A DNA stretch of 64,000 bases from Pelagerythrobacter marinus (GTDB lineage Bacteria > Pseudomonadota > Alphaproteobacteria > Sphingomonadales > Sphingomonadaceae). A model generated the notes under the pieces. That model was not told the origin of the DNA, did no database searches, and saw nothing but the letters and a program-made list of their open reading frames with translations. The DNA is taken from assembly GCF_009827515.1 (NCBI RefSeq), contig NZ_WTYO01000005.1, positions 62,001 through 126,000 of the forward strand, written 5' to 3'. Positions 36,560 through 48,004 of this stretch are shown piece after piece. The translations under genes and the position numbers were made by a program. Position 1 is the stretch's first letter. Every line of letters starts with the position of its first letter.

Positions 36560-37452
36560 GCGAACCGCAGAAGAGCGATCCGGGCCTCTACGATTTCCAG
36601 GCCTATCGCGGCCGGCCGAAGATCGAATGGCCGGAGGGCAAGACCTGCGCGGTCTGGGTCGCGCCCAATCTCGAATTCTACGAAATCGACCCGCCCGCCA
36701 ATCCGCACCGCAAGAGCTGGGCCAAGCCGCATCCCGACGTGGTCGGATACGGGCACCGCGACCACGCCAACCGCGTCGGCCACTGGCGCATGGCGGAGGT
36801 GATGAGCAAGCACGGCTTTCCCGGCTCGGTCAGCCTCTCGGTCGCGCTATGCGACCACATTCCCGAGGTGGTCGAAGATGCAAGCCAGCGCGGGTGGGAG
36901 TTCTTCAGCCACGGGATCTACAACACCCGCTACAGCTACGGCATGGACGAGGCGCAGGAACGCGCGATCATCGAGGATTCGATCCGCACCGTAGAAGCCG
37001 CGACCGGGCAGCGCATCCGCGGCTGGCTGGCGCCCGCGCTGACGCATACGCCGCGCACGCTCGACCTGATCGCAGAGTATGGCCTCGACTATACCTGCGA
37101 CCTCTATCACGACGATCAGCCGACGCGCGTGAAGGTCAAGTCGGGCAAGCTGACCGCCATTCCCTACAGCCTCGAGGTCAACGATCACTACGGCTTCTTC
37201 ATCTACAACATGAGCCCGCGTGAATATGCCGACACGCTGATCCGCCAGTACGAGCGGCTGGCGGAGGAAGGCGCGCGCTCCGGCACGGTCATGTGCATCC
37301 CGCTTCACAGCTACCTCATCGGCCAGCCGCATCGCATCGGCCCGTTCGAGGAGGTGCTGAAGCATATCGCCGCCGACGGCCGCGCTTGGATCGCCCGCGC
37401 GGGCGAGATCGTCGACGCCTTCAATGCACAGACCGGGGAGGACGGCCGATGA
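36556..37452 (+). CDS. PuuE-like polysaccharide-deacetylase-family hydrolase 1
   Basis: 298 aa, no signal peptide, NodB-fold. Instead of the TFDDG of true deacetylases, the first strand reads WVAPNLEFYEID, as in allantoinase PuuE and cyclic imide hydrolases. The second motif SHGIYNTR retains one His and lacks the usual second His. It overlaps both neighbours by 4 bp. Ring-opening C-N hydrolysis is predicted. Confidence 0.78.
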   Translation: MSEPQKSDPGLYDFQAYRGRPKIEWPEGKTCAVWVAPNLEFYEIDPPANPHRKSWAKPHPDVVGYGHRDHANRVGHWRMAEVMSKHGFPGSVSLSVALCDHIPEVVEDASQRGWEFFSHGIYNTRYSYGMDEAQERAIIEDSIRTVEAATGQRIRGWLAPALTHTPRTLDLIAEYGLDYTCDLYHDDQPTRVKVKSGKLTAIPYSLEVNDHYGFFIYNMSPREYADTLIRQYERLAEEGARSGTVMCIPLHSYLIGQPHRIGPFEEVLKHIAADGRAWIARAGEIVDAFNAQTGEDGR

Positions 37453-38375
37453 CTCTCGATCCCGCCTATCTCGAATACGCGGCGCGCGGCCGGGGCATGG
37501 ACCACGGGCTCTACCGCTATTCCAGTCTCTTCGACCGCCCGCCGGTCGATTGGCCGGAGGGGAAGACGGTCGCGATCGCCTGCGTCGTCAGCCTCGAATG
37601 GTTCCCGATGGTGCCCGAGGACAAGCCCTTCCGCGCGCCCGGCCACATGCAGACCGCCTACCCCGATTACCGCCACTACACGGCGCGCGAATACGGGACG
37701 CGGGTGGGCTTCTACCGCTTGCTCGACGCGTTCGACAAGGCGGGCGTGCGGGCGTCGATCGCCACCAACGGCGCGATCGCCGAGCGCTATCCGCGGATCA
37801 TCGAGGACATCGTGGCCGCCGGTCACGAGATCGTCGCCCACTCCACCGACATGAACGGCACGATCGCGACCGGTCTGCCCGAGGAGGACGAGAAGGCGCT
37901 GATCGCCCGCTCCCTCGCGTCGCTGGAGAGCGCATCGGGGACCCGTCCGAAGGGCTGGCTCTCGATCGCGCGTTCGCAGAGCTGGAACACGCCGCGCCTG
38001 CTGGCCGAGGCGGGGCTCGCCTACATGTGCGACTGGCCCAACGACGAACTGCCCTACCGCATGGAGACCGGGGCCGGCTCGATCGTCAACCTGCCGCTCA
38101 ACCACGAGTTGTCCGACCGGCAGATCCTCAATGTCCAGCAGCAATCGGCCGATTCCTACGTCGAGCAAATCAAGGACGCCTACCGCTGGCTGGCCGGCGA
38201 AGCGCAGCATCATGGCGGCCGCATGTTGCCGCTGCACCTGACGCCCTACATCGTCGCCCTCCCCTACCGGATCGCGGCGTTCGAGAGCCTGCTGGCGTGG
38301 CTCGCCGATCAGGATGGCAGCTGGTTCGCGACCTGCGGCGACGTGGTGGACCAATGGAGCGCGCAGAACCCATGA
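37449..38375 (+). CDS. PuuE-like polysaccharide-deacetylase-family hydrolase 2
   Basis: 308-aa paralogue of the preceding gene, sharing the order of motifs: DWPEGKTVAIACVVSLEWF, then GTRVGFYRLLDAF, HEIVAHSTDMNG and HLTPYIVALPYR. Again the second zinc His of the deacetylase motif is absent (HSTDMN). It may form a hetero-oligomer with its neighbour or act on a second ring. ATGA overlaps on both sides. Confidence 0.78.
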   Translation: MTLDPAYLEYAARGRGMDHGLYRYSSLFDRPPVDWPEGKTVAIACVVSLEWFPMVPEDKPFRAPGHMQTAYPDYRHYTAREYGTRVGFYRLLDAFDKAGVRASIATNGAIAERYPRIIEDIVAAGHEIVAHSTDMNGTIATGLPEEDEKALIARSLASLESASGTRPKGWLSIARSQSWNTPRLLAEAGLAYMCDWPNDELPYRMETGAGSIVNLPLNHELSDRQILNVQQQSADSYVEQIKDAYRWLAGEAQHHGGRMLPLHLTPYIVALPYRIAAFESLLAWLADQDGSWFATCGDVVDQWSAQNP

Positions 38376-39799
38376 CTCTGCAGGTGCGGAATCCGCGGAC
38401 CGGGCAGTTCGACTACAGCATCGAGCCCGCCGGCCGCGAGGCGCTCGAGGCGGCGGCAGGCGCGCTGCGCGAGGCGCAGGTGCGCTGGGCCGCCCGCACG
38501 CCCGAGGATCGCGCGAGTATTCTCCACCGCTGGGCCGACGCGATCGAGCGCGACCAGGCGGCCATCGCCGCCGCGCTGACGGTGGACACCGGGCGCAGCA
38601 CGATTTCCGGGATCGAGGCGTCGGCCATGGTCCAGCTCGTCCGCCGCTGGGCGGACCGCGCGCCGGCGCTGATCGCGGAGCACCAGCGCGGCGGCTGCGC
38701 GACGTCGCACGCGACGATCACCACCTCGACCACGCTGGTCCCCTTCCCGCTCGTGGGCGTGATCAGCCCGTGGAACTTCCCGCTCACGCTCTCGCTGATC
38801 GACGCGGTGCCTGCCCTCGCGGCGGGCTGCGCGGCCCTCGTGAAGCCGTCGGAAGTGACGCCCCGCTTCGTCGCCCCGCTGGTCGAGGCGACGCGGAGCG
38901 TGCCCGAGATCGCCGAGGTGCTCGCGTTCGTGCAGGGCGACGGCGCGACCGGCGCCGCACTGGTCGATGTGGTGGACTTCGTCTGCTTCACCGGGTCGGT
39001 CCCGACAGGACGCAAGGTCGCCGAAGCGGCGGCGCGGGCGTTCATTCCCGCCAGCCTCGAACTCGGCGGCAAGGACCCGATGATCGTGCTCGCCAGCGCC
39101 GATCCCGAGCGGGCCGCTGCGATCGCGCTGCGCGCCAGCATCGTCAACACCGGGCAGGCGTGCCAGTCGATCGAGCGCGTCTACGTCGCGCGCGCGATCG
39201 CGGAGCCGTTCCTCAAGGCGCTCGTCGCGGGAGCGGAAGCCGTGCGGCTGAACCATCCCGACATCTCGGACGGCGACATCGGGCCGTTCATCTTCGAGAA
39301 GCAGGCCCGGGTCGTCCAGGCGCAGATCGACCAGGCCCGGGCCGCCGGCGCCGAGATCCTGACCGGGGGCACGGTCGAGACGCTCGACGGCGGTCTCTAT
39401 CTCCGCCCGACCGTGATCACCGGCGTCGCGCCCGAGATGGCCGTCATGGCCGAGGAGACCTTCGGCCCGGTCATTCCGGTCACGGTCGTCGACAACGATG
39501 ACGAGGCGGTGCGGCTCGCGAACGAAGGCCCTTATGGTCTCTCCGCCGCGGTCATTGCCGGCAGCGTGGAAGAAGCCGAGGCGATCGGCGCGCGGCTCCA
39601 GGTCGGGGCCGTCTCGATCAACGACGGGAGCCTGACGGGCCTCGTGTGGGAAGCGGAGAAGACCAGCTTCGGCGAGTCCGGCCTCGGCCCCTCGCGCATG
39701 GGCGACAGCGGCCTGCTGCGCTTTCTCCGCAAGCGGGTGCTGATCCGGCAGTCGGGCGAGGCGCTGCCGCTCGCCGCCTATGCGGAAAGGAGGAGCTGA
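38372..39799 (+). CDS. Aldehyde dehydrogenase family protein
   Basis: 475 aa. SPWNFPLTLSL, general base in LELGGKDP, and nucleophile Cys264 in NTGQACQSIE are present. Last gene of operon III, overlapping the second PuuE-like gene. It would oxidise a pathway aldehyde to the acid. The replacement of the common Thr-Cys by Ala-Cys at the active site is seen in some subfamilies. Confidence 0.88.
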   Translation: MTLQVRNPRTGQFDYSIEPAGREALEAAAGALREAQVRWAARTPEDRASILHRWADAIERDQAAIAAALTVDTGRSTISGIEASAMVQLVRRWADRAPALIAEHQRGGCATSHATITTSTTLVPFPLVGVISPWNFPLTLSLIDAVPALAAGCAALVKPSEVTPRFVAPLVEATRSVPEIAEVLAFVQGDGATGAALVDVVDFVCFTGSVPTGRKVAEAAARAFIPASLELGGKDPMIVLASADPERAAAIALRASIVNTGQACQSIERVYVARAIAEPFLKALVAGAEAVRLNHPDISDGDIGPFIFEKQARVVQAQIDQARAAGAEILTGGTVETLDGGLYLRPTVITGVAPEMAVMAEETFGPVIPVTVVDNDDEAVRLANEGPYGLSAAVIAGSVEEAEAIGARLQVGAVSINDGSLTGLVWEAEKTSFGESGLGPSRMGDSGLLRFLRKRVLIRQSGEALPLAAYAERRS

Positions 39800-39814: not shown

Positions 39815-40177
39815 TCAGCTTTCCAGAAGATCGCGGCGGATCTCGTCGATGGAAGGCTCGTTAGTCTTCATGCCCTCCAGGTCCTGCTGAACCCCGCGCA
39901 TGATGCGGGCGATGTACTCGCGCGTCAGGCAGCCGCGTTCGAACGCCGCGTCGCGGTCGGGAACGAACGCCTCGATATCGGCGCGGTCGAGGCTGCCGTT
40001 CTTCTCCAGCAACCGCTCCACGGTATCGAGCCGCTCGCGCAGCACCGAAACCTCGCCGACCAGCGCCATCACGATCGACAGCATGCGATCGAGCGCGGGC
40101 TCCTCGAAAAAGGCCGGGCGCTTGCCCTTGGCCTTGGCATTGGCGCGCAGCATCCAGTCGATCGCGTCGTCGCTCAT
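39815..40177 (-). CDS. Small coiled-coil hypothetical protein
   Basis: 120 aa, highly charged, with a heptad-like helix LVGEVSVLRERLDTVERLLEK (about 41-61). Its start overlaps the upstream methyltransferase stop (ATGA), so it is a true last gene of operon IV. The family is unrecognised; it might be a partner subunit of the methyltransferase. Confidence 0.6.
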   Translation of the reverse strand: MSDDAIDWMLRANAKAKGKRPAFFEEPALDRMLSIVMALVGEVSVLRERLDTVERLLEKNGSLDRADIEAFVPDRDAAFERGCLTREYIARIMRGVQQDLEGMKTNEPSIDEIRRDLLES

Positions 40178-41382
40178 TGCCCGGGCTCCTTCTTCCACGC
40201 GCCGTAGGCGTGCCACGCCGCCGCGCGGCCGTGATCCTCGGCTCCGCCGAGCTTCGACTTGGGAAAGATCGCCTCGTCGACCACGGCCGTCACCCCGGTG
40301 GTGAACAGCTCGTCCTGCGAGAAGCCGCTCTCCAGCATCACGGTCTTGAGATCGAGCGCGTGCATGGCCGACCAGAAGGGTTCATTGTTGTTGAACGCGT
40401 CCCAGTCGCGGATGAATTGCTCGTAGAGCGGCATGTCCTCCGAATACTGCGGTTGCTCGAGGTGGAGCATCAGCCCACCCGGCGCGAGGACACGGTAGAG
40501 CTCGCCCATGATGCGAGGCAGCGCCTTGCCCGAGAGCTCGTGCAGGAACATCGTGGTCTGCACCCAGTCGAAATGGCCGTCGGGCCAGCGCGACAGGTCT
40601 TCCGCGTTGGCCTGCACGAACCGGATGTTGTGCACGCCCATCGATTGCGCGCGCGCATGGGCGTAGCGCAGCGACGGCGCGGCGGTGTCGATCGCGATCA
40701 CTTCGGTTTCAGGGAACGCCTCGGCCAGCGGAACGGCGTTATGGCCGACCGTACAGCCGACGTCGAGGATCCGGCGCGGGGTCCAGTCCGGCCGCTCGCG
40801 CCTGATCCATTCGACCAGCGCCTGGCCGCCGCCATCGTTCAGCGCGCCGAGCCCGCCGCCGGTGGTGGCGAAGATGCCGCAGTCGTAGTTGGCGCCGGCC
40901 GACACGTCGCCGGGCCGCTCCTCGCCGTGATAGCTGCCCGGCATGCAGTGGATGTCCACTTGCGCCTGGTAGTGCGGCACCTCGATCGAGGGATCAAGTT
41001 CCAGAGTGTCGCGCCCTTCGTTGTACTGGCGCGCCTTGGCGTCGAGCTCGTCGAGTTGGCGCAGGACCATCGCGCGGCCGTTCTGCTGCCGCATCTCCAT
41101 CGAGTTGCGCTTCAGCGCGGACCAGAACCGGTGATAGGGGTCGCGGTTCATCGCCTCGCGGATCTCGAACCGGTCCTTCGGCGCGCGCCCGTGCTCCTCG
41201 GCGAAAGCGGGCAGGACGCGCCGCTCGTAGGCGATCGCGTTGCCGGGACCGAGCGTGCCCGCGAGGTACTTGTTGAGGTGCGTCAGGAAGTTGAAGCGCG
41301 CCGCCTCGTCGTGGCGCGGGTTCGGAAACACGCCGTGCCGGGAAACGGCCGTATAGGGCGGCGGGATGTCTTCGCGTTTCAT
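40174..41382 (-). CDS. Class I SAM-dependent methyltransferase
   Basis: 402 aa. The SAM motif I LDVGCTVGHNAVPLAEAFP is at about 200-220, with motif II/III (VIAIDTAAPSLRYA; FDWVQTTMFLHEL) following. The 190-residue N-terminal extension has no motif I recognise. It overlaps the nitrilase-family gene (4 bp) and the small coiled-coil gene. Substrate unknown. Confidence 0.82.
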   Translation of the reverse strand: MKREDIPPPYTAVSRHGVFPNPRHDEAARFNFLTHLNKYLAGTLGPGNAIAYERRVLPAFAEEHGRAPKDRFEIREAMNRDPYHRFWSALKRNSMEMRQQNGRAMVLRQLDELDAKARQYNEGRDTLELDPSIEVPHYQAQVDIHCMPGSYHGEERPGDVSAGANYDCGIFATTGGGLGALNDGGGQALVEWIRRERPDWTPRRILDVGCTVGHNAVPLAEAFPETEVIAIDTAAPSLRYAHARAQSMGVHNIRFVQANAEDLSRWPDGHFDWVQTTMFLHELSGKALPRIMGELYRVLAPGGLMLHLEQPQYSEDMPLYEQFIRDWDAFNNNEPFWSAMHALDLKTVMLESGFSQDELFTTGVTAVVDEAIFPKSKLGGAEDHGRAAAWHAYGAWKKEPGQ

Positions 41383-42509
41383 ATCAAGCCTTCCTTGTCG
41401 AGCCGTTCTATCACCTGCTGCTGAACCCGAACGAAATGGTCGCGGTCGGGCACTTTGACCTTGCCATCCTCGATCAGGCTGTCGGCCGGCTGCACGACCG
41501 TGTCGGCGTAGATCGGCGCGAACAGCTCCGTCCGCTGACGCGCCAGATAGTTTATCATGCCCGGCTTGCGCCGTGCCGCGCGAAGCGCCCCAATGTCGAT
41601 GTCTGCAAAGGCGGTGAAGGTCTCCCCCGCGTTCGATTCCGCGAGCACCTTGCCCTTGAAATCGACCACGATCGAATTGCCGTCGGCCGAGGCTGCAGGC
41701 ATTCCCGACCCCTCGATGCCGGCGGTGTTCGCCGAGACGACGTAGGCGATATTCTCGAAGGCGCGGGCGCGCTTGGCGATCGCTTTCTGCGTCGCGAGGG
41801 GCGAGCCGACTTCGGAGGAACTGTGAACGAACACCTCGGCACCGCGCAGGGCATGGGCGCGCGCGATCTCAGGGTAGAGAATCTCCTCCGACGCGATCGC
41901 AGCGAGATTGCCGATCTCGGTTCGCGCGACCGGGAAGACGCCGTCGATGCCGTACACGTCGAGATACTTGGACCATACGTCGTGCGGCGTTGGCGCGAAC
42001 ATCGAATTCAGCCGCCGGTAGCGAAGCACCACGTCCCCGGACGGCGCGACGACGAAGCTCGTCTGGAAGTAGAGGCCGGGAAAATGCGGATCGACTTCAT
42101 AGGCATTGCCCGCGAGGAACAGGTTCTGCGCCTGGGCGATGCGGCCGAACGCCTCGTATTCGGGCCCGTCGATTTCCAGCGCCGCCTTGTGCGCGAAGTC
42201 GCCGATCGAAATGCGGCCCGGATAGCTGGTCAGCAGGTATTCGGGCAGCACGGCAAGGCGCACGGGCGCGCCGCTGTACTGGCTGATGAAGATCGACGAC
42301 GCGCGAAGTTTCGCGCCCACCTCGTCGATCTGCGCCAGCATCTGCGCGCGCGCGGCGGCGCGGTCGGGCGCGCCCTCGACGGAGCGGGCCGCGACCTGGA
42401 GAGCAAGCGCGGAGTAGGTTTTATCAGCGGGCATGTCTTTCCCCATCACGGGCCAGGGCAGCGACGCCGCGACCAACCCGGCAAGCGCCTGTCTTCGATC
42501 GAGAAACAT
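41379..42509 (-). CDS. Nitrilase-superfamily protein with altered catalytic triad
   Basis: 376 aa. A twin-arginine-like signal (RRQALAGLVAA, residues 5-15) suggests export. The nitrilase fold is clear: Glu90 in LPEYLLTSYPG, then VLRYRRLNSM and AAIASEEILYPEIAR. Against the usual Glu-Lys-Cys triad, the Lys position is Arg (165/166) and the Cys position is Ser207. It is therefore either a non-hydrolytic relative or an enzyme with a different mechanism. Operon IV context suggests it handles an amide or nitrile-like ligand in the periplasm. Confidence 0.75.
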   Translation of the reverse strand: MFLDRRQALAGLVAASLPWPVMGKDMPADKTYSALALQVAARSVEGAPDRAAARAQMLAQIDEVGAKLRASSIFISQYSGAPVRLAVLPEYLLTSYPGRISIGDFAHKAALEIDGPEYEAFGRIAQAQNLFLAGNAYEVDPHFPGLYFQTSFVVAPSGDVVLRYRRLNSMFAPTPHDVWSKYLDVYGIDGVFPVARTEIGNLAAIASEEILYPEIARAHALRGAEVFVHSSSEVGSPLATQKAIAKRARAFENIAYVVSANTAGIEGSGMPAASADGNSIVVDFKGKVLAESNAGETFTAFADIDIGALRAARRKPGMINYLARQRTELFAPIYADTVVQPADSLIEDGKVKVPDRDHFVRVQQQVIERLDKEGLI

Positions 42510-42524
42510 GGCGCGTCCCCATCT

Positions 42525-44069
42525 CTATAGCCCAAGACTACCCGGATTCATCAGATTGTCCGGATCGACGGCGTCCTTCAGCGTTCGCAGGATGGCCCAG
42601 GCGGATGAATCGAGCGCCTCCTGCAGCGGATAGGTGCGGGCGATCTGCAGGTGCGTCGCCCCGAGCCCGCGGAATGTCTCGATCAGTCCGCCCCTAAGAT
42701 GGGCGACCAGCGCCCGCGATTCCTCGTTGGCCGGAAACTGCTCCAGCTTGGCGAGGTGATCGGGCTCGATCGAGCGGCGGTGCAGTTCCTCGAGGTTGTC
42801 GGGCCAGAAGAAGACCGGCTCGATCAGGCACGCCGAACGGCTCACCGCCGCAAGCATCGCACCTGCGCCGACTCCGAGCCGCTCCATCTCGGCCGCGTTC
42901 GCCTCGAACAGCGCCTGGATGCGGTTCCAGCCCTCCAGCAGGCGGCTGTGGGGGAGGAAGCCGTGAACGGGCACCCAGCGCTCGCCCGCGGGGCCGACCA
43001 TCGAGTTGACCGGCGGGAACGGGTTGGCGCGCAGAATCTTGGGAATGCTGTTCTCGACCACGCGTCCGCCGGCGTCGGCGACGATCCGCTCGATTTCGGC
43101 CAAGTCGGCTGCGACCGCAGGCTCGTTGCGCCCCTCGCAGATGAGATGCAGCGAAAAGCCTGCGTCATCGAGGAACGAGCGACCGGCCGCAACGACTTTG
43201 GCGCCTTCCTTCAGTGCCTTCCACGCGGACCCTTGCGCCTTCATCATGTTGACGAGCGACTTGGCATCTTTGGCTAGGCTCTCGCGCTTCATCCGCTGTG
43301 CCTGGAGGAAGGGATCGAAGCCGAAGCTTTCGGAGGCGAGCCCTTCCCGCGCCACGCCGCTCATGGCTTTGAAGAAGCCGTCAGCCGTGTCGAACGCGTA
43401 GGAGCCGTACGCGAAGGCGGCGCCCTCGCGTACGAGCTGGAGCGTGACGGTCGCCTTGATCCCGAACGCGCCGGTGTCGGCGGCGAACAGGCCGGTGATG
43501 TCGGGGCCGAACGGCCGGAAGAAGTCGCTTCCCGTGCTTACGATGCGCCCGTTGGCGAGCACCACCTCGAAGCGGAGCGCTCCGTCGACGACAACACCGT
43601 CGCGCGCGCCCCAGAACACCCCGTTCTGACTCATCCCGCCGCCGACGGTGGCCTTGATGCCCGAAAGCGTTCCCCAGGCCAGCGCGCGCAGACGATGCGG
43701 TTTCAGCGCAAGCCGCAAGTCTTCCCAGGTGCAGCCAGCCTCGACCGTCGCGGTCATGTCGGTCGGGTTGATGTCGAGCACCCGGTTCATCCGGCCGAGA
43801 TCGACGATCAGCGCGCCCGCCTTGGGGGCGACATAGCCTCCGGTGTAGCTCATGCCGCCGCCGCGCGGGATGATGGCGACGCCGGCGGCGGTCGCCGCGC
43901 CGACCGCCCGGGCCAGCGCCTCCTTGTCCGCGGGGCGAATGACCGCGAGTGGCGGCGGGCCCTTGGAATAGACGTCCTGTGCGTAGAAGTCGCATTCGGC
44001 GGGGTCGGTGATCAGGCCTTCCGGTCCGACCGCTGCGGAGAGGCTTTCGAGAATCCCATCGGGTCGCAT
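42525..44069 (-). CDS. VAO/PCMH-type FAD-binding oxidoreductase, second copy
   Basis: 514 aa, aligning end to end with 28013-29590: PRGGGMSYTGGY, GIKATVGGGMSQNGVFWG and the C-terminal DPDNLMNPGSLGL. ATG 44069 with GAGGAA upstream; the much longer open frame to 45215 is a shadow of the transporter gene. No cytochrome c sits in this operon, so it could use the lipoprotein cytochrome from operon I. Confidence 0.85.
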   Translation of the reverse strand: MRPDGILESLSAAVGPEGLITDPAECDFYAQDVYSKGPPPLAVIRPADKEALARAVGAATAAGVAIIPRGGGMSYTGGYVAPKAGALIVDLGRMNRVLDINPTDMTATVEAGCTWEDLRLALKPHRLRALAWGTLSGIKATVGGGMSQNGVFWGARDGVVVDGALRFEVVLANGRIVSTGSDFFRPFGPDITGLFAADTGAFGIKATVTLQLVREGAAFAYGSYAFDTADGFFKAMSGVAREGLASESFGFDPFLQAQRMKRESLAKDAKSLVNMMKAQGSAWKALKEGAKVVAAGRSFLDDAGFSLHLICEGRNEPAVAADLAEIERIVADAGGRVVENSIPKILRANPFPPVNSMVGPAGERWVPVHGFLPHSRLLEGWNRIQALFEANAAEMERLGVGAGAMLAAVSRSACLIEPVFFWPDNLEELHRRSIEPDHLAKLEQFPANEESRALVAHLRGGLIETFRGLGATHLQIARTYPLQEALDSSAWAILRTLKDAVDPDNLMNPGSLGL

Positions 44070-44086: not shown

Positions 44087-45364
44087 TTACGCGGCCGCCG
44101 GAGAGGCGTTGCCGCGCTGCACACCGGCGGATTGGGAGAGATCGGGATAGCGGCCCAGCAGCAGCAGCAGCGCGCCGCCGACGGCGAACAGCCCCATCGA
44201 AACCATCAGGATGGCGTCGTAGCTGCCGGTCGCATCGCGCACCGCGCCGTACGCCATCGGCGACAGCGCCGAGAAGATGCCGAAGGGCATGTAGAGAACT
44301 CCGTAGATGCGGCCGTAGTACGCCATCCCGAAATAGCGCGCGGTGAGGAAGGCGATGACGTCGGATTCCGTGCCCGCAGCGAAGCCGAGCAGCAGGCCAC
44401 CGACGAGGACGAGCGGCAACGAGGTGTCGGTGCCCATGAGCAGGAAACAGGCGAACGCCGGCAGCAGCAGCGCTGGAAACGCCACGCCCGGAGCCCAGAA
44501 GCGATCGAACAGCAGGCCGACGATGATGCGGCCCGCGAGGATGCCGATCGCGACGACGCCCATCACGGTCGCTGCGGTGCCCGCGTCGAAGCCATGGACC
44601 TGCACGATCTGCGCCATGTGAATGTGCGCGCCTGCATAAGCGAACGAGGCGAGCGCGATCGAGACGAACAGAATCCAGAAGCGCCGGCCGCGCGCGGCTT
44701 CGCGAAGCGACAGGCCCAGCACCTTGCCGCTCGCGTCGGAGATACCGGGCGGCTGCTCCTCGGGCCGGGGCTCGCGGAACCACGCCAGTCCGACCGGCAG
44801 CGCGATCAGCAGGGGCAGCAGCGCCAGGACCGGGAAGGCGAGGCGCCAGCCGCCTGCGTCGATCGCGGCGTGGGCGATCTGGGGAACCGCCATTCCGGCG
44901 AAGCTCGTGCCGAGCAGCATGATGCCGAGCGCCAGCCCGCGATTGCGCGCGAACCACATGCTGATCGCGCGGCTCCAGGTGACCGGCGTCGAGCCGATGC
45001 CCACGATCCCGAGGATTGCCCACATCATGTAGTAGCCGGTCAGCGATCCCGGCATGAACCAGAACGCGCCGAAGACCAGGCCGAAGATGAACAGCGACCA
45101 GAGCGCGACCGGGCGCACGCCAAGCTTGTCGGCCAGGGCGCCATAAACCGGCGACATCAGCGAGGCGATGATGCCGAAGATGGTCATCCCGGCGCTGAGC
45201 GCCGCGAAATCCCATCCGAACTCCTCGTGCATCGGCCCCATCGCGAGCGGGAGCACGTTGAACGGAAGCGGGGATGCACCGCAGGTTACACCCAGCAGCG
45301 CCGCCGCGAGGGGCTTGGAGCCAAGCTTGAATTCGCTTCGCGGCGTCGCTGCCGGATTGTGCAT
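44087..45364 (-). CDS. MFS transporter
   Basis: 425 aa with about 12 membrane helices. The MFS loop motif GALADKLGVRPVAL (about 70) and its second-half counterpart GRIIVGLLFDRFW are present. It resembles oxalate/formate-antiporter-like monocarboxylate carriers. Lying directly after the TonB receptor gene in operon IV, it probably takes the substrate or a degradation product across the inner membrane. Confidence 0.88.
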   Translation of the reverse strand: MHNPAATPRSEFKLGSKPLAAALLGVTCGASPLPFNVLPLAMGPMHEEFGWDFAALSAGMTIFGIIASLMSPVYGALADKLGVRPVALWSLFIFGLVFGAFWFMPGSLTGYYMMWAILGIVGIGSTPVTWSRAISMWFARNRGLALGIMLLGTSFAGMAVPQIAHAAIDAGGWRLAFPVLALLPLLIALPVGLAWFREPRPEEQPPGISDASGKVLGLSLREAARGRRFWILFVSIALASFAYAGAHIHMAQIVQVHGFDAGTAATVMGVVAIGILAGRIIVGLLFDRFWAPGVAFPALLLPAFACFLLMGTDTSLPLVLVGGLLLGFAAGTESDVIAFLTARYFGMAYYGRIYGVLYMPFGIFSALSPMAYGAVRDATGSYDAILMVSMGLFAVGGALLLLLGRYPDLSQSAGVQRGNASPAAA

Positions 45365-45401
45365 TACTGGCCTTTCGTTCGTGTCGGTGCCGGAGCCGGT
45401 A

Positions 45402-47957
45402 TCAGAAGCTGTGGCGCGCCCGGACCATCCACCGCATGGGCGGATTGATGTAGGTCGTGTTCGCCAGCGACGTCTGCGACGACGTCTCGTCGAAGCAGTT
45501 CGTGCACTGGAGCGAGAGCTGCCAGGCATTGTCCGGGCCGTTGAGCGACAGACCGGCGTTCACCGTCCACAGCGGCTCGCTGTACGCGCCGGCGATCAGG
45601 TTCCCGTCGTATGGATTTGCCGGGAAGGTCCCGTTAGCGCCGGAAATGCCGCCGGAATAGATGGTGAAGTTGCTGGTGGAGACCCACTGTTCCGAACGGT
45701 AAGTGGCGTTGACCGAAGGCACCAGGGTCATGCCCGAGGAACCGAGCTCGGCCTCGTAGCTTCCGCCGAACGCCAGAGTCCAGTCGGGCGTGCGGACCGG
45801 CGAGGCGATCTCGCCATCGGCGGTGATGATGCCCGCCCCGCAAGCCGCGGCGCCCGGACCACCCGGGACATTGCCCGCCGCGAGCTGCTCCAGACAGGCC
45901 GCCTGCTGCGCCGCCACCGACTGAATGCCATATTCGTCGAATTCGGGGGCATTGCGATCGATGACGTACTCGTCGTCCTGGTAGCCGACGTTCGCGTAGA
46001 GGTTGAGACCGTCCATCGGCGCGAGGATGAACTCCGCCTCGACGCCCTTGTTCTCGTAGTCGGCGAAGTTGCGGGTGAGGAAGGTGATCGCGCCGGTGGG
46101 CCCGACGAGCCCCGACGGCGTCTGCAGGCTCTTCACGTCCATCCAGAAGAACGTCACGTTCGCGCGCAGGATCCGGTTGAAGAGGTCCGACTTGACGCCA
46201 GCTTCGTAGCTCCAGACCTTCTCCGGACCGAACGGCAGCAGAGTGGCCGGCGTGGAGCCGCGGGCGTTCCAGCCGCCCGACTTGAAGCCGCGGGTGGCGG
46301 ATGCGAAAAAGAGCAGGCTGGGATTGGGCTCGTAGCTGACGGCGAAACGCGGCGTCCAGATTCCCACCGACTGTTCGAGGGGGATTGCGAGCCCTGAAGG
46401 TGCAACGAGATTGGCACTGTCGAGACAATTGGCCGGCAGCGGCCCCGACACGTCGCACTGCGCGCGATTGTCGCTGATGCTGATCGTCTTGGTCTCGTCG
46501 GTGTAGCGGATGCCTGCTGTCAGCTTGAGCTGGTCGGTAACATTGAAGTCGGTCTGCGCATAACCGGCAAGCGCCTCGGCCTTGTTGCGCAGGATGCGGT
46601 CGGCCAGCAGAAGCTGCACGTCTTCCGACACGGAGAACAGGTCCGCAAAGTCGGTGCGGTTCTCTTCGATCAGGTAGAACGCACCGCCCACGAAGTCGAC
46701 CAACCCGTCGGCAAAGCTGCCGGAGAACTTCACTTCCTGGCTGAACTGCTCATGCTGGCCGTCGTTCAGGATCACGAAGCCGCCGCGGCTGTAGCCGGTC
46801 ACCGTCGGATAGGGATTAGCTATCGTCGGCGCCGTCCGGCCGTCGTAGAAATCGATCCCGTACTGCTGCGTCTGATTGACGAAGCCGGTGATCAGGTTGA
46901 CCGTGACGTTGTCGCTGATGTCGACTTCGAAATCCGATCTCACCAGATCGGTCGCAGTGCGATTGCCGAGGAGGTAGTTCGCCTTGCGGCCCCGGATGTC
47001 CAGCGGCGCATACGGCGAGCTGTCTGCGGTTCCGCCCTCCGGCAGTCCGGTGGTGACGAAACGGCCATCGCAATCGGTCGGATCGGCCGGGTTGCAGTCG
47101 TAGTTGAGGATGTTCTCGCCGTTGGCGACGATATGGGCATAGGAGCCGCTCCAGCGTACGGATGGGCTGAGCTCGCCCCGGATGCCGAGGCGCGCACCCC
47201 ATCCGTCGTCGTCATTAAGCCGATCGCCGGTGGTGATGTTCTTCGCGTAGCCGTCGTCGTCCTGCCAGTAACCGCTCACCTTGATCGCAAGCGTGTCCAC
47301 GATCGGCACGTCGACCGACCCGCGAACGACTTTCTTGTTGAAGCGGCCGTAGCCGAGTTCCAGGTATCCACCAAACTCGTCGTCCGGCTCGCGCAGGATG
47401 ACGTTGACCGCGCCGCCGGTGGTATTGCGGCCGAACAGCGTACCCTGCGGCCCGCGCAGCACCTCGACCCGCTCCACATCGAACAGGCTGATGTTGTTGG
47501 CGTTCTGCCGGCTGAGATAGATGTCGTCGACATAGGTGCCGACGGGCGGGTCGAAAGTCGGGATGGACTCGGTGTTGCCCATGCCGCGGATGAAGAAGGC
47601 GTTCGACGAACCGAGGCCGGTGTTGTTGAGCGCCACGAAGTTCGGCACGTACTGCGCAACGTCGAGCGTGCTGCTCACACCCTTCGCCTGGAGCTGGTCG
47701 GGCGAGAAAGCGGACACCGCGATCGGCACGTCCTGCAGATTCTCGGAACGTCGCTGGGCAGTCACGAGAATCACGCCGATGCCCGAAGCATCGTCGGCCG
47801 ACGCGGCCTGGGCCTGATCGGCCGCGGCGCTGGCGGTATCCGTGCTTTCGGCCTGGGTGCCGGCGGATTCGTCCTGCCCGACCGTCTGGGCGTGAAGCGG
47901 TGCAGAGACGGCGACGCCCGCGAGCGCGGTTGCGGTGAAAAGAAGGGTTCTGCGCAT
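45402..47957 (-). CDS. TonB-dependent outer-membrane receptor
   Basis: 851 aa. The signal peptide (MRRTLLFTATALAGVAVSAPLHA) and an acidic Ala/Asp/Gln-rich segment precede IGVILVTAQRRSENLQDVPIAVSAFS, the typical plug start in sphingomonads. The plug domain follows (about 70-180), then a beta-barrel ending in Phe (RHSF). ATG 47957 has AGGAGA upstream. Its first position in operon IV and operator site 3 indicate regulated uptake of the island's substrate, which would need to be large or scarce enough to require active import. Confidence 0.92.
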   Translation of the reverse strand: MRRTLLFTATALAGVAVSAPLHAQTVGQDESAGTQAESTDTASAAADQAQAASADDASGIGVILVTAQRRSENLQDVPIAVSAFSPDQLQAKGVSSTLDVAQYVPNFVALNNTGLGSSNAFFIRGMGNTESIPTFDPPVGTYVDDIYLSRQNANNISLFDVERVEVLRGPQGTLFGRNTTGGAVNVILREPDDEFGGYLELGYGRFNKKVVRGSVDVPIVDTLAIKVSGYWQDDDGYAKNITTGDRLNDDDGWGARLGIRGELSPSVRWSGSYAHIVANGENILNYDCNPADPTDCDGRFVTTGLPEGGTADSSPYAPLDIRGRKANYLLGNRTATDLVRSDFEVDISDNVTVNLITGFVNQTQQYGIDFYDGRTAPTIANPYPTVTGYSRGGFVILNDGQHEQFSQEVKFSGSFADGLVDFVGGAFYLIEENRTDFADLFSVSEDVQLLLADRILRNKAEALAGYAQTDFNVTDQLKLTAGIRYTDETKTISISDNRAQCDVSGPLPANCLDSANLVAPSGLAIPLEQSVGIWTPRFAVSYEPNPSLLFFASATRGFKSGGWNARGSTPATLLPFGPEKVWSYEAGVKSDLFNRILRANVTFFWMDVKSLQTPSGLVGPTGAITFLTRNFADYENKGVEAEFILAPMDGLNLYANVGYQDDEYVIDRNAPEFDEYGIQSVAAQQAACLEQLAAGNVPGGPGAAACGAGIITADGEIASPVRTPDWTLAFGGSYEAELGSSGMTLVPSVNATYRSEQWVSTSNFTIYSGGISGANGTFPANPYDGNLIAGAYSEPLWTVNAGLSLNGPDNAWQLSLQCTNCFDETSSQTSLANTTYINPPMRWMVRARHSF

Positions 47958-48004
47958 TTGATCCAATCTCCTGAATGGGGCGTCGGCACCGCATTGGCGC
48001 TCTA

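Follow-up and report, generated by a model that had tools for sequence, protein, structure and literature searches.

Glu-Arg-Asp-Ser in place of Glu-Lys-Glu-Cys: a nitrilase-superfamily clade that stays with a conserved, catabolic-looking gene cluster

Glu-Lys-Cys is regarded as the defining triad of the nitrilase superfamily. In aliphatic amidases and formamidases there is a fourth active-site residue, which we take to be Glu142 in AmiE numbering, and changes of Glu142 also inactivate amidases. Serine enzymes with a carboxylate base are known in other folds, namely the patatin-like Ser-Asp enzymes and the sedolisins. For the nitrilase fold, one study uses AmiE C166S as a catalytic knockout and reports that its fitness metric lies close to the value expected of a non-functional variant, so that Cys-to-Ser kills the enzyme in the canonical setting (PMC5467163). 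The nitrilase domain of DRT1 carries the catalytic Cys according to another (PMC13275509). A literature search, with most subscription papers outside its reach, retrieved neither a natural Cys-to-Ser nitrilase family nor a gene cluster like the one described below.

The gene under study lies in a 64,000-nucleotide stretch of the Pelagerythrobacter marinus genome, here called the window.

41379..42509, minus strand: CN_hydrolase protein with a Glu-Arg-Asp-Ser set, 376 aa (ORF list, Pfam, AlphaFold, VIA)

The ORF list places its ATG at 42509 and its stop at 41379. The coordinates of the original prediction were thus correct, while the minus strand, a Glu-to-Asp change (Asp177) and the conserved gene cluster had been overlooked. 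Annotation pipelines label such genes 'nitrilase-related carbon-nitrogen hydrolase'. PF00795 (CN_hydrolase) is the one Pfam family in the protein (102.5 bits, cut-off 23.2), and domain and alpha-beta-beta-alpha fold both place it in the nitrilase (CN-hydrolase) superfamily. Its best NCBIfam matches stay far under the equivalog thresholds of AmiF and AmiE, with 66.1 bits for formamidase (cut-off 406) and 60.9 bits for aliphatic amidase (cut-off 427). An AlphaFold model from a 65-row alignment has a mean pLDDT of 91.8 and a pTM of 0.90. Amidase and nitrilase structures head the fold lists of both Foldseek and VIA-align. VIA-align ranks the aliphatic amidase 2uxy first (Z 32.5, rmsd 2.8, 291 aligned residues), with other aliphatic amidases within 1 Z and formamidases close behind, while formamidases and aliphatic amidases are the top Foldseek matches, formamidase AmiF being first.

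Homologue identities are 45-85% within one clade, followed by a clear gap and then by the next relatives (tier B) at 29-38%. The tier limits, above 250 and above 90 bits, were set by us in gaps of the score list. The 116 distinct clade sequences comprise 78 from a pattern scan (best 80 of 413), the patterns of which include EEILYPEI beside Ser207 and not Ser itself, 36 from pattern-free whole-genome searches, one from a plasmid search and the window protein; 14 further clade matches of the order search stand outside the residue counts. All 116 carry Glu-Arg-Asp-Ser at the four active-site places, where AmiE has Glu-Lys-Glu-Cys.

42240..42242 (GAA), minus strand: Glu90, at the place of the general-base Glu; Glu in 116/116 clade sequences; codon checked
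42012..42014 (CGG), minus strand: Arg166, at the place of the catalytic Lys; Arg in 116/116 clade sequences, Lys in 24/24 of tier B and 16/16 of the distant tier C
42015-42017 (CGG), minus strand: Arg165; codon checked
41979..41981, minus strand: Asp177, at the place of AmiE Glu142; Asp in 116/116 clade sequences and 20/24 of tier B
41889..41891 (TCG), minus strand: Ser207, at the place of the catalytic Cys; Ser in 116/116 clade sequences; aligned with the Cys of 2uxy
41883..41888, minus strand: Glu208-Glu209, an invariant pair directly after Ser207; each in 116/116 clade sequences, Glu208 being clade-specific

These assignments rest on several alignments. A profile built from 12 clade sequences only aligns YRR with the YR-Lys of AmiE (2uxy) and, without gaps, Ser207 with its Cys. 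A single-sequence alignment to 2uxy likewise pairs Glu90 with Glu, Arg166 with Lys and Ser207 with Cys. The original prediction had named Glu90, Arg165 or Arg166, and Ser207 as the altered triad, which the codons bear out, with Arg166, not Arg165, at the Lys place. As PHDVW is aligned with PIEGW of 2uxy, the fourth amidase residue corresponds to Asp177. In the model, a strand spans residues 200-206 and a helix starts at 207, in agreement with Ser207 at the Cys place. One hhalign run with two small profiles agreed on YRR/YRK, while a 3-residue gap set the Cys column opposite Ala204; we took this shift as a gap misplacement. This run, which moves the register by three residues, would be the argument for a standard Cys amidase that was merely misaligned, or for a gene in decay. 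We consider it hardly credible, given the gapless match of Ser207 with the Cys of AmiE, a reading frame that is open in 116/116 clade sequences, a median dN/dS of 0.081 and the fact that there is no cysteine anywhere in the 376-aa protein. The loss of the nucleophile is therefore independent of the Ser register. For the same reason a Cys moved into the pocket from another segment, the finding that would have overturned the original prediction, does not occur; the richest clade column holds Cys in 28/116 sequences.

By sequence and fold the clade adjoins the branch of aliphatic amidases and formamidases. AmiE (2uxy; profile E-value 1.9e-18) and the Geobacillus pallidus amidase (2plq, 4lf0) are its best solved relatives; they share Glu90 and the following Tyr, and differ in having Lys, Glu142 and Cys where the clade has Arg166, Asp177 and Ser207, at about 22% identity. 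The formamidase AmiF (2e2k, 5g3o) is the top NCBIfam and Foldseek match, yet the same residue changes set the clade apart from it. Proteins of tier B, also named nitrilase-related carbon-nitrogen hydrolases, resemble the clade in mostly having Asp at the Glu142 place, but all 24 keep Lys and none has Ser at the Cys place. The mutants AmiE C166S and plant N-carbamoylputrescine amidase C158S (5h8k) do have Ser at this place, like the clade. However, they represent a single artificial change with Lys intact, whereas the Ser of the clade occurs naturally, is fixed and comes together with the Lys-to-Arg and Glu-to-Asp changes.

The canonical triad is thus absent throughout the clade, with Glu-Arg-Ser in every sequence, and so is the Glu-Lys-Glu-Cys set of aliphatic amidases and formamidases. 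Loss of the canonical catalytic residues with retention of the fold is one mark of a pseudoenzyme, the other being a lack of catalytic activity. The protein might accordingly use its fold and pocket as a non-catalytic partner of the cluster enzymes, such as the methyltransferase or the FAD oxidase, by binding a ligand, serving as a scaffold or regulating them. In 116/116 sequences three amidase residues out of four are altered, and Cys-to-Ser alone is a knockout in AmiE (PMC5467163). We nevertheless consider a purely non-catalytic role rather unlikely, because the invariant pocket-type residues exceed what a scaffold needs: 66 columns of the clade alignment are conserved at 98% or more, and 11 near-invariant residues are clade-specific (N135, Y137, Q149, R166, S169, S207, E208, K242, A300, M318, R324). 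A residue was counted as clade-specific if present in at least 98% of the clade and at most 15% of both other tiers; for S169 and M318 the distant tier offers almost no residues for comparison. As judged from their conservation, and with their nearness to the pocket inferred, the 11 residues suggest that the pocket has been remade and has not decayed.

Selection on the gene is evident. NG86 dN/dS values have a median of 0.081 and a range of 0.021-0.176 over 105 clade pairs, which are not independent of each other and have 85-99% protein identity. The clade is thus kept by purifying selection, as had been predicted for the window gene, and a pseudogene was rejected on this basis together with the open frames. 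Collecting homologues had been suggested as a check on whether Ser and Arg are conserved through a subfamily, and both turned out to be fixed. Ser207 is encoded by TCN in 95/115 and by AGY in 20/115 sequences, from which it follows that the serine outlasted switches between codon classes. The invariant residues Ser169, Ser259 and Ser279 show the same codon mixing; persistence of the serine is therefore established but is not special to site 207.

That the rebuilt pocket is under such constraint speaks for an active enzyme. As the likeliest reading, though at somewhat less than an even chance, we propose a putative amidase-fold enzyme with serine chemistry that acts in the catabolic pathway of the cluster. 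In this scheme, Ser207 would be the nucleophile, at the strand-to-helix turn where amidases hold their Cys. Glu90 would take its proton, Arg166 would steady the oxyanion and Asp177 would position the substrate. The intermediate, resembling an ester, amide or thioester, would then be hydrolysed or lose its acyl group by transfer. From its conservation pattern, Lys242 is perhaps a catalytic partner of Ser207. An active enzyme with a rebuilt pocket is the firmer part of this proposal, for which the confident amidase fold and the conserved gene cluster also speak, and the assignment of Ser207 as nucleophile should be read as a weaker suggestion. Serine chemistry is favoured by the retention of Ser through codon switches, whereas 8/24 sister sequences have Ala or Gly.

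The sister sequences also carry an argument in the opposite direction. In tier B (n=24), Lys is present in 24 and Glu in 22 sequences, while the Cys place is occupied by Cys in 15, Ala in 5 and Gly in 3, with a gap in one. The presence of Ala or Gly at the nucleophile place of conserved sisters indicates that this branch can manage without a nucleophile, which counts against serine chemistry, as do the AmiE C166S knockout and the inactivating changes of Glu142. In the distant tier C (n=16), Lys is found in all sequences and Cys in 15, the exception being a second paralogue from the genome of the window itself, which is aligned as Ser. In a 57-row tree, the 30 clade members included form one starred branch with a support of 100/100. 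The Lys-to-Arg replacement is a single change on this tree, and the states at site 207 require at least 5 changes; the loss of Cys thus recurs nearby, while Ser together with Arg arose once.

These data are consistent with an active enzyme that has no covalent nucleophile. A carboxylate-rich pocket of Glu90, Asp177, Glu208, Glu209 and perhaps Glu233, with His229, Arg166 and the new Lys242, would then directly activate water, a metal or a carbon atom of the substrate, and Ser207 and Arg166 would serve substrate binding only. Sisters that have lost Cys while keeping Lys and Glu, the recurrence of this loss, and the conservation of Glu208, Glu209 and Glu233 in 116/116 and of His229 in 114/116 clade sequences all fit such an enzyme. 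The residue fixed in the clade, however, is Ser and not Ala or Gly, and we regard non-covalent catalysis as rather unlikely. The repeated loss of Cys in sister lineages would equally suit a pseudoenzyme.

The tier-B proteins that keep Lys and have Ala at the nucleophile place are L130, L162, L165, L037 and L040; those with Gly are L048, L046 and L163. They include proteins from the archaeon Haladaptatus and from Tsukamurella. The Tsukamurella gene adjoins a cyclase-family gene and a salicylyl-CoA 5-hydroxylase cluster.

The second nitrilase-fold paralogue (392 aa) is encoded on contig C12 of the same genome, about 4.3 kb past the window end (L167:10325-11500, minus strand). It is divergent and has a clearer twin-arginine leader (SRRMVLGAAAG). 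At the nucleophile place it is aligned as Ser, having no Cys, and Lys is kept. Due to a long branch its place in the tree is unsure. It adjoins a TonB receptor and, at L167:12301-13670, reading frames that are transposase-like from their translations and that may fit the patchy occurrence of the region.

The genes around the amidase-fold gene were compared between 20 loci, one of them incomplete, and 20 control regions. Eighteen test genomes out of the 20 supplied the controls, two of these 18 being used twice; one of the 21 best order-search loci, on a short contig, was omitted.

42525..44069, minus strand: FAD-linked oxidase (PF01565 and PF02913; GlcD- and ADHAP-synthase-like), directly upstream; 20/20 loci, 0/20 controls
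44087..45529, minus strand: MFS transporter; 19/20 loci, 0/20 controls
45402..47966, minus strand: TonB-dependent receptor; 14/20 loci, 0/20 controls
40174..41382, minus strand: SAM-dependent methyltransferase with an N-terminal part outside any assigned family; 13/20 loci, 0/20 controls
39815..40216, minus strand: small protein of 133 aa with no Pfam match; 9/20 loci, 0/20 controls
38354..39799, plus strand: aldehyde dehydrogenase; 13/20 loci, 0/20 controls, 10/15 distant loci
37449..38375, plus strand: polysaccharide-deacetylase-fold protein near PuuE allantoinase (under the NCBIfam cut-off); 15/20 loci, 0/20 controls

Along the minus strand the window has the order TonB receptor, MFS transporter, FAD oxidase, amidase-fold protein, SAM methyltransferase and small protein, and the start of the methyltransferase gene overlaps the stop of the amidase-fold gene. 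The 13 methyltransferase loci comprise 9 with a strong match and 4 with only a 36-38% homologue. The nearest NCBIfam of the aldehyde dehydrogenase is succinic semialdehyde dehydrogenase, under its cut-off. Three other families behaved similarly in the matched test (family 6, 17 loci vs 0 controls; family 8, 15 vs 0; family 10, 13 vs 0).

A larger set comprised 81 genome-contig and window loci; gene calling recovered the anchor gene at 68 of them, and the other 13 were dropped. The FAD oxidase family occurs at 57 of these 68 loci and is the immediate upstream neighbour at 55. Of the 15 distant loci of the clade, the aldehyde dehydrogenase is found in 10, the FAD oxidase in 8, a DUF1330-size family (fam46) in 7 and the methyltransferase in 2, which makes the aldehyde dehydrogenase the most widely kept partner outside sphingomonads. 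In Nonomuraea the gene order is aldehyde dehydrogenase, DUF3598-type protein, amidase-fold gene. The company of the FAD oxidase in 20/20 loci would suit a pseudoenzyme that partners it, but the oxidase is absent, at our threshold, from 7 of the 15 distant loci.

The cluster is part of a catabolic-looking region (30796-57743) that encodes an HMG-CoA lyase, a LeuC-like dehydratase, an alpha/beta hydrolase, two PuuE-like deacetylases, a RipC-like lyase, an acyl-CoA dehydrogenase, two family III CoA-transferases, an MmgE/PrpD protein and a PaaK-like ligase. Upstream, the hydroxymethylglutaryl-CoA lyase (276.5 bits, cut-off 246) and the LeuC-type dehydratase (662.3 bits, cut-off 531) pass their NCBIfam thresholds; the RipC-like lyase (232.6 bits, cut-off 375) is below. 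The combination of uptake proteins, an oxidase, a dehydrogenase and CoA-ester enzymes in a conserved cluster points to a catabolic pathway. We considered a cyclic-imide route, from the PuuE-like proteins, and a ring-cleavage route, from VOC, alpha/beta-hydrolase and FAD-monooxygenase neighbours in some loci. The presence of lyases, the LeuC-like dehydratase and oxidoreductases would also fit an amidase-fold enzyme with non-covalent chemistry.

The gene occurs patchily, as would befit an accessory pathway. Clade-level matches were found in 6 of 40 relatives searched (own genome included) and in 0/6 genomes of the same genus. In wider sets the numbers are 45/296 for the order, 10/385 for the class and 3/398 for the phylum. 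Carriers include Sphingobium, Sphingorhabdus, Erythrobacter, Blastomonas, Peristeroidobacter, a Halieaceae MAG, Kordiimonas and the actinomycete Nonomuraea gerenzanensis. One clade member (L128, 58% identity) comes from a record labelled Sporosarcina cascadiensis, which would be a member of the Firmicutes, and represents either transfer or contamination.

The window protein had been predicted to be exported.

42435..42509, minus strand: twin-arginine-like leader, about residues 1-25 (heuristic; pLDDT about 52-61 over residues 1-30 of the model)

Its start, MFLDRRQALAG, MFLDRRQALAGLVAASL, has the twin arginine and hydrophobic stretch of a Tat-type signal at the N-terminus. A heuristic that asks for RR, a hydrophobic stretch and a nearby start codon finds such a leader in 50/116 clade members; the 66 members without one include Sphingobium, Kordiimonas and Nonomuraea. 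The leader state changes at least 9 times on a 114-row clade tree. The twin-arginine-like start is thus confirmed for the window protein, while conserved export was rejected as a trait of the clade. Leaderless orthologues start near Met26 of the window protein, which has in-frame ATGs at residues 22 and 26 (42432-42446, minus strand), after the GGGGAAAG stretch. An in-frame ATG just before the mature start occurs in 35/50 leader-bearing genes, against a background of 26% for a same-size stretch of the same genes. With this ATG kept, a second, cytoplasmic and leaderless product would be possible. The leader suggests export of at least a fraction of the protein in the window organism, a feature that the clade as a whole does not share.

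In summary, a discrete clade of the nitrilase superfamily has exchanged Glu-Lys-Glu-Cys for Glu-Arg-Asp-Ser and stays with a conserved, catabolic-looking gene cluster. It spans Alphaproteobacteria, Gammaproteobacteria and at least one actinomycete. The uniform replacement of Cys, Lys and the fourth Glu under strong selection means that the fold has either gained a new mode of catalysis or taken on a conserved role outside catalysis. It is conceivable, though we lean against it, that this is a natural re-engineering in which Ser-Arg-Asp-Glu was swapped in for Cys-Lys-Glu-Glu and a new reaction was gained in an undescribed catabolic pathway. If so, this would be the first serine-type, or the first nucleophile-free, enzyme of the nitrilase superfamily. 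Beyond the protein itself, a conserved but patchily spread gene cluster has been marked out in sphingomonads and their relatives, and either outcome makes the role of the fold without its cysteine directly testable.
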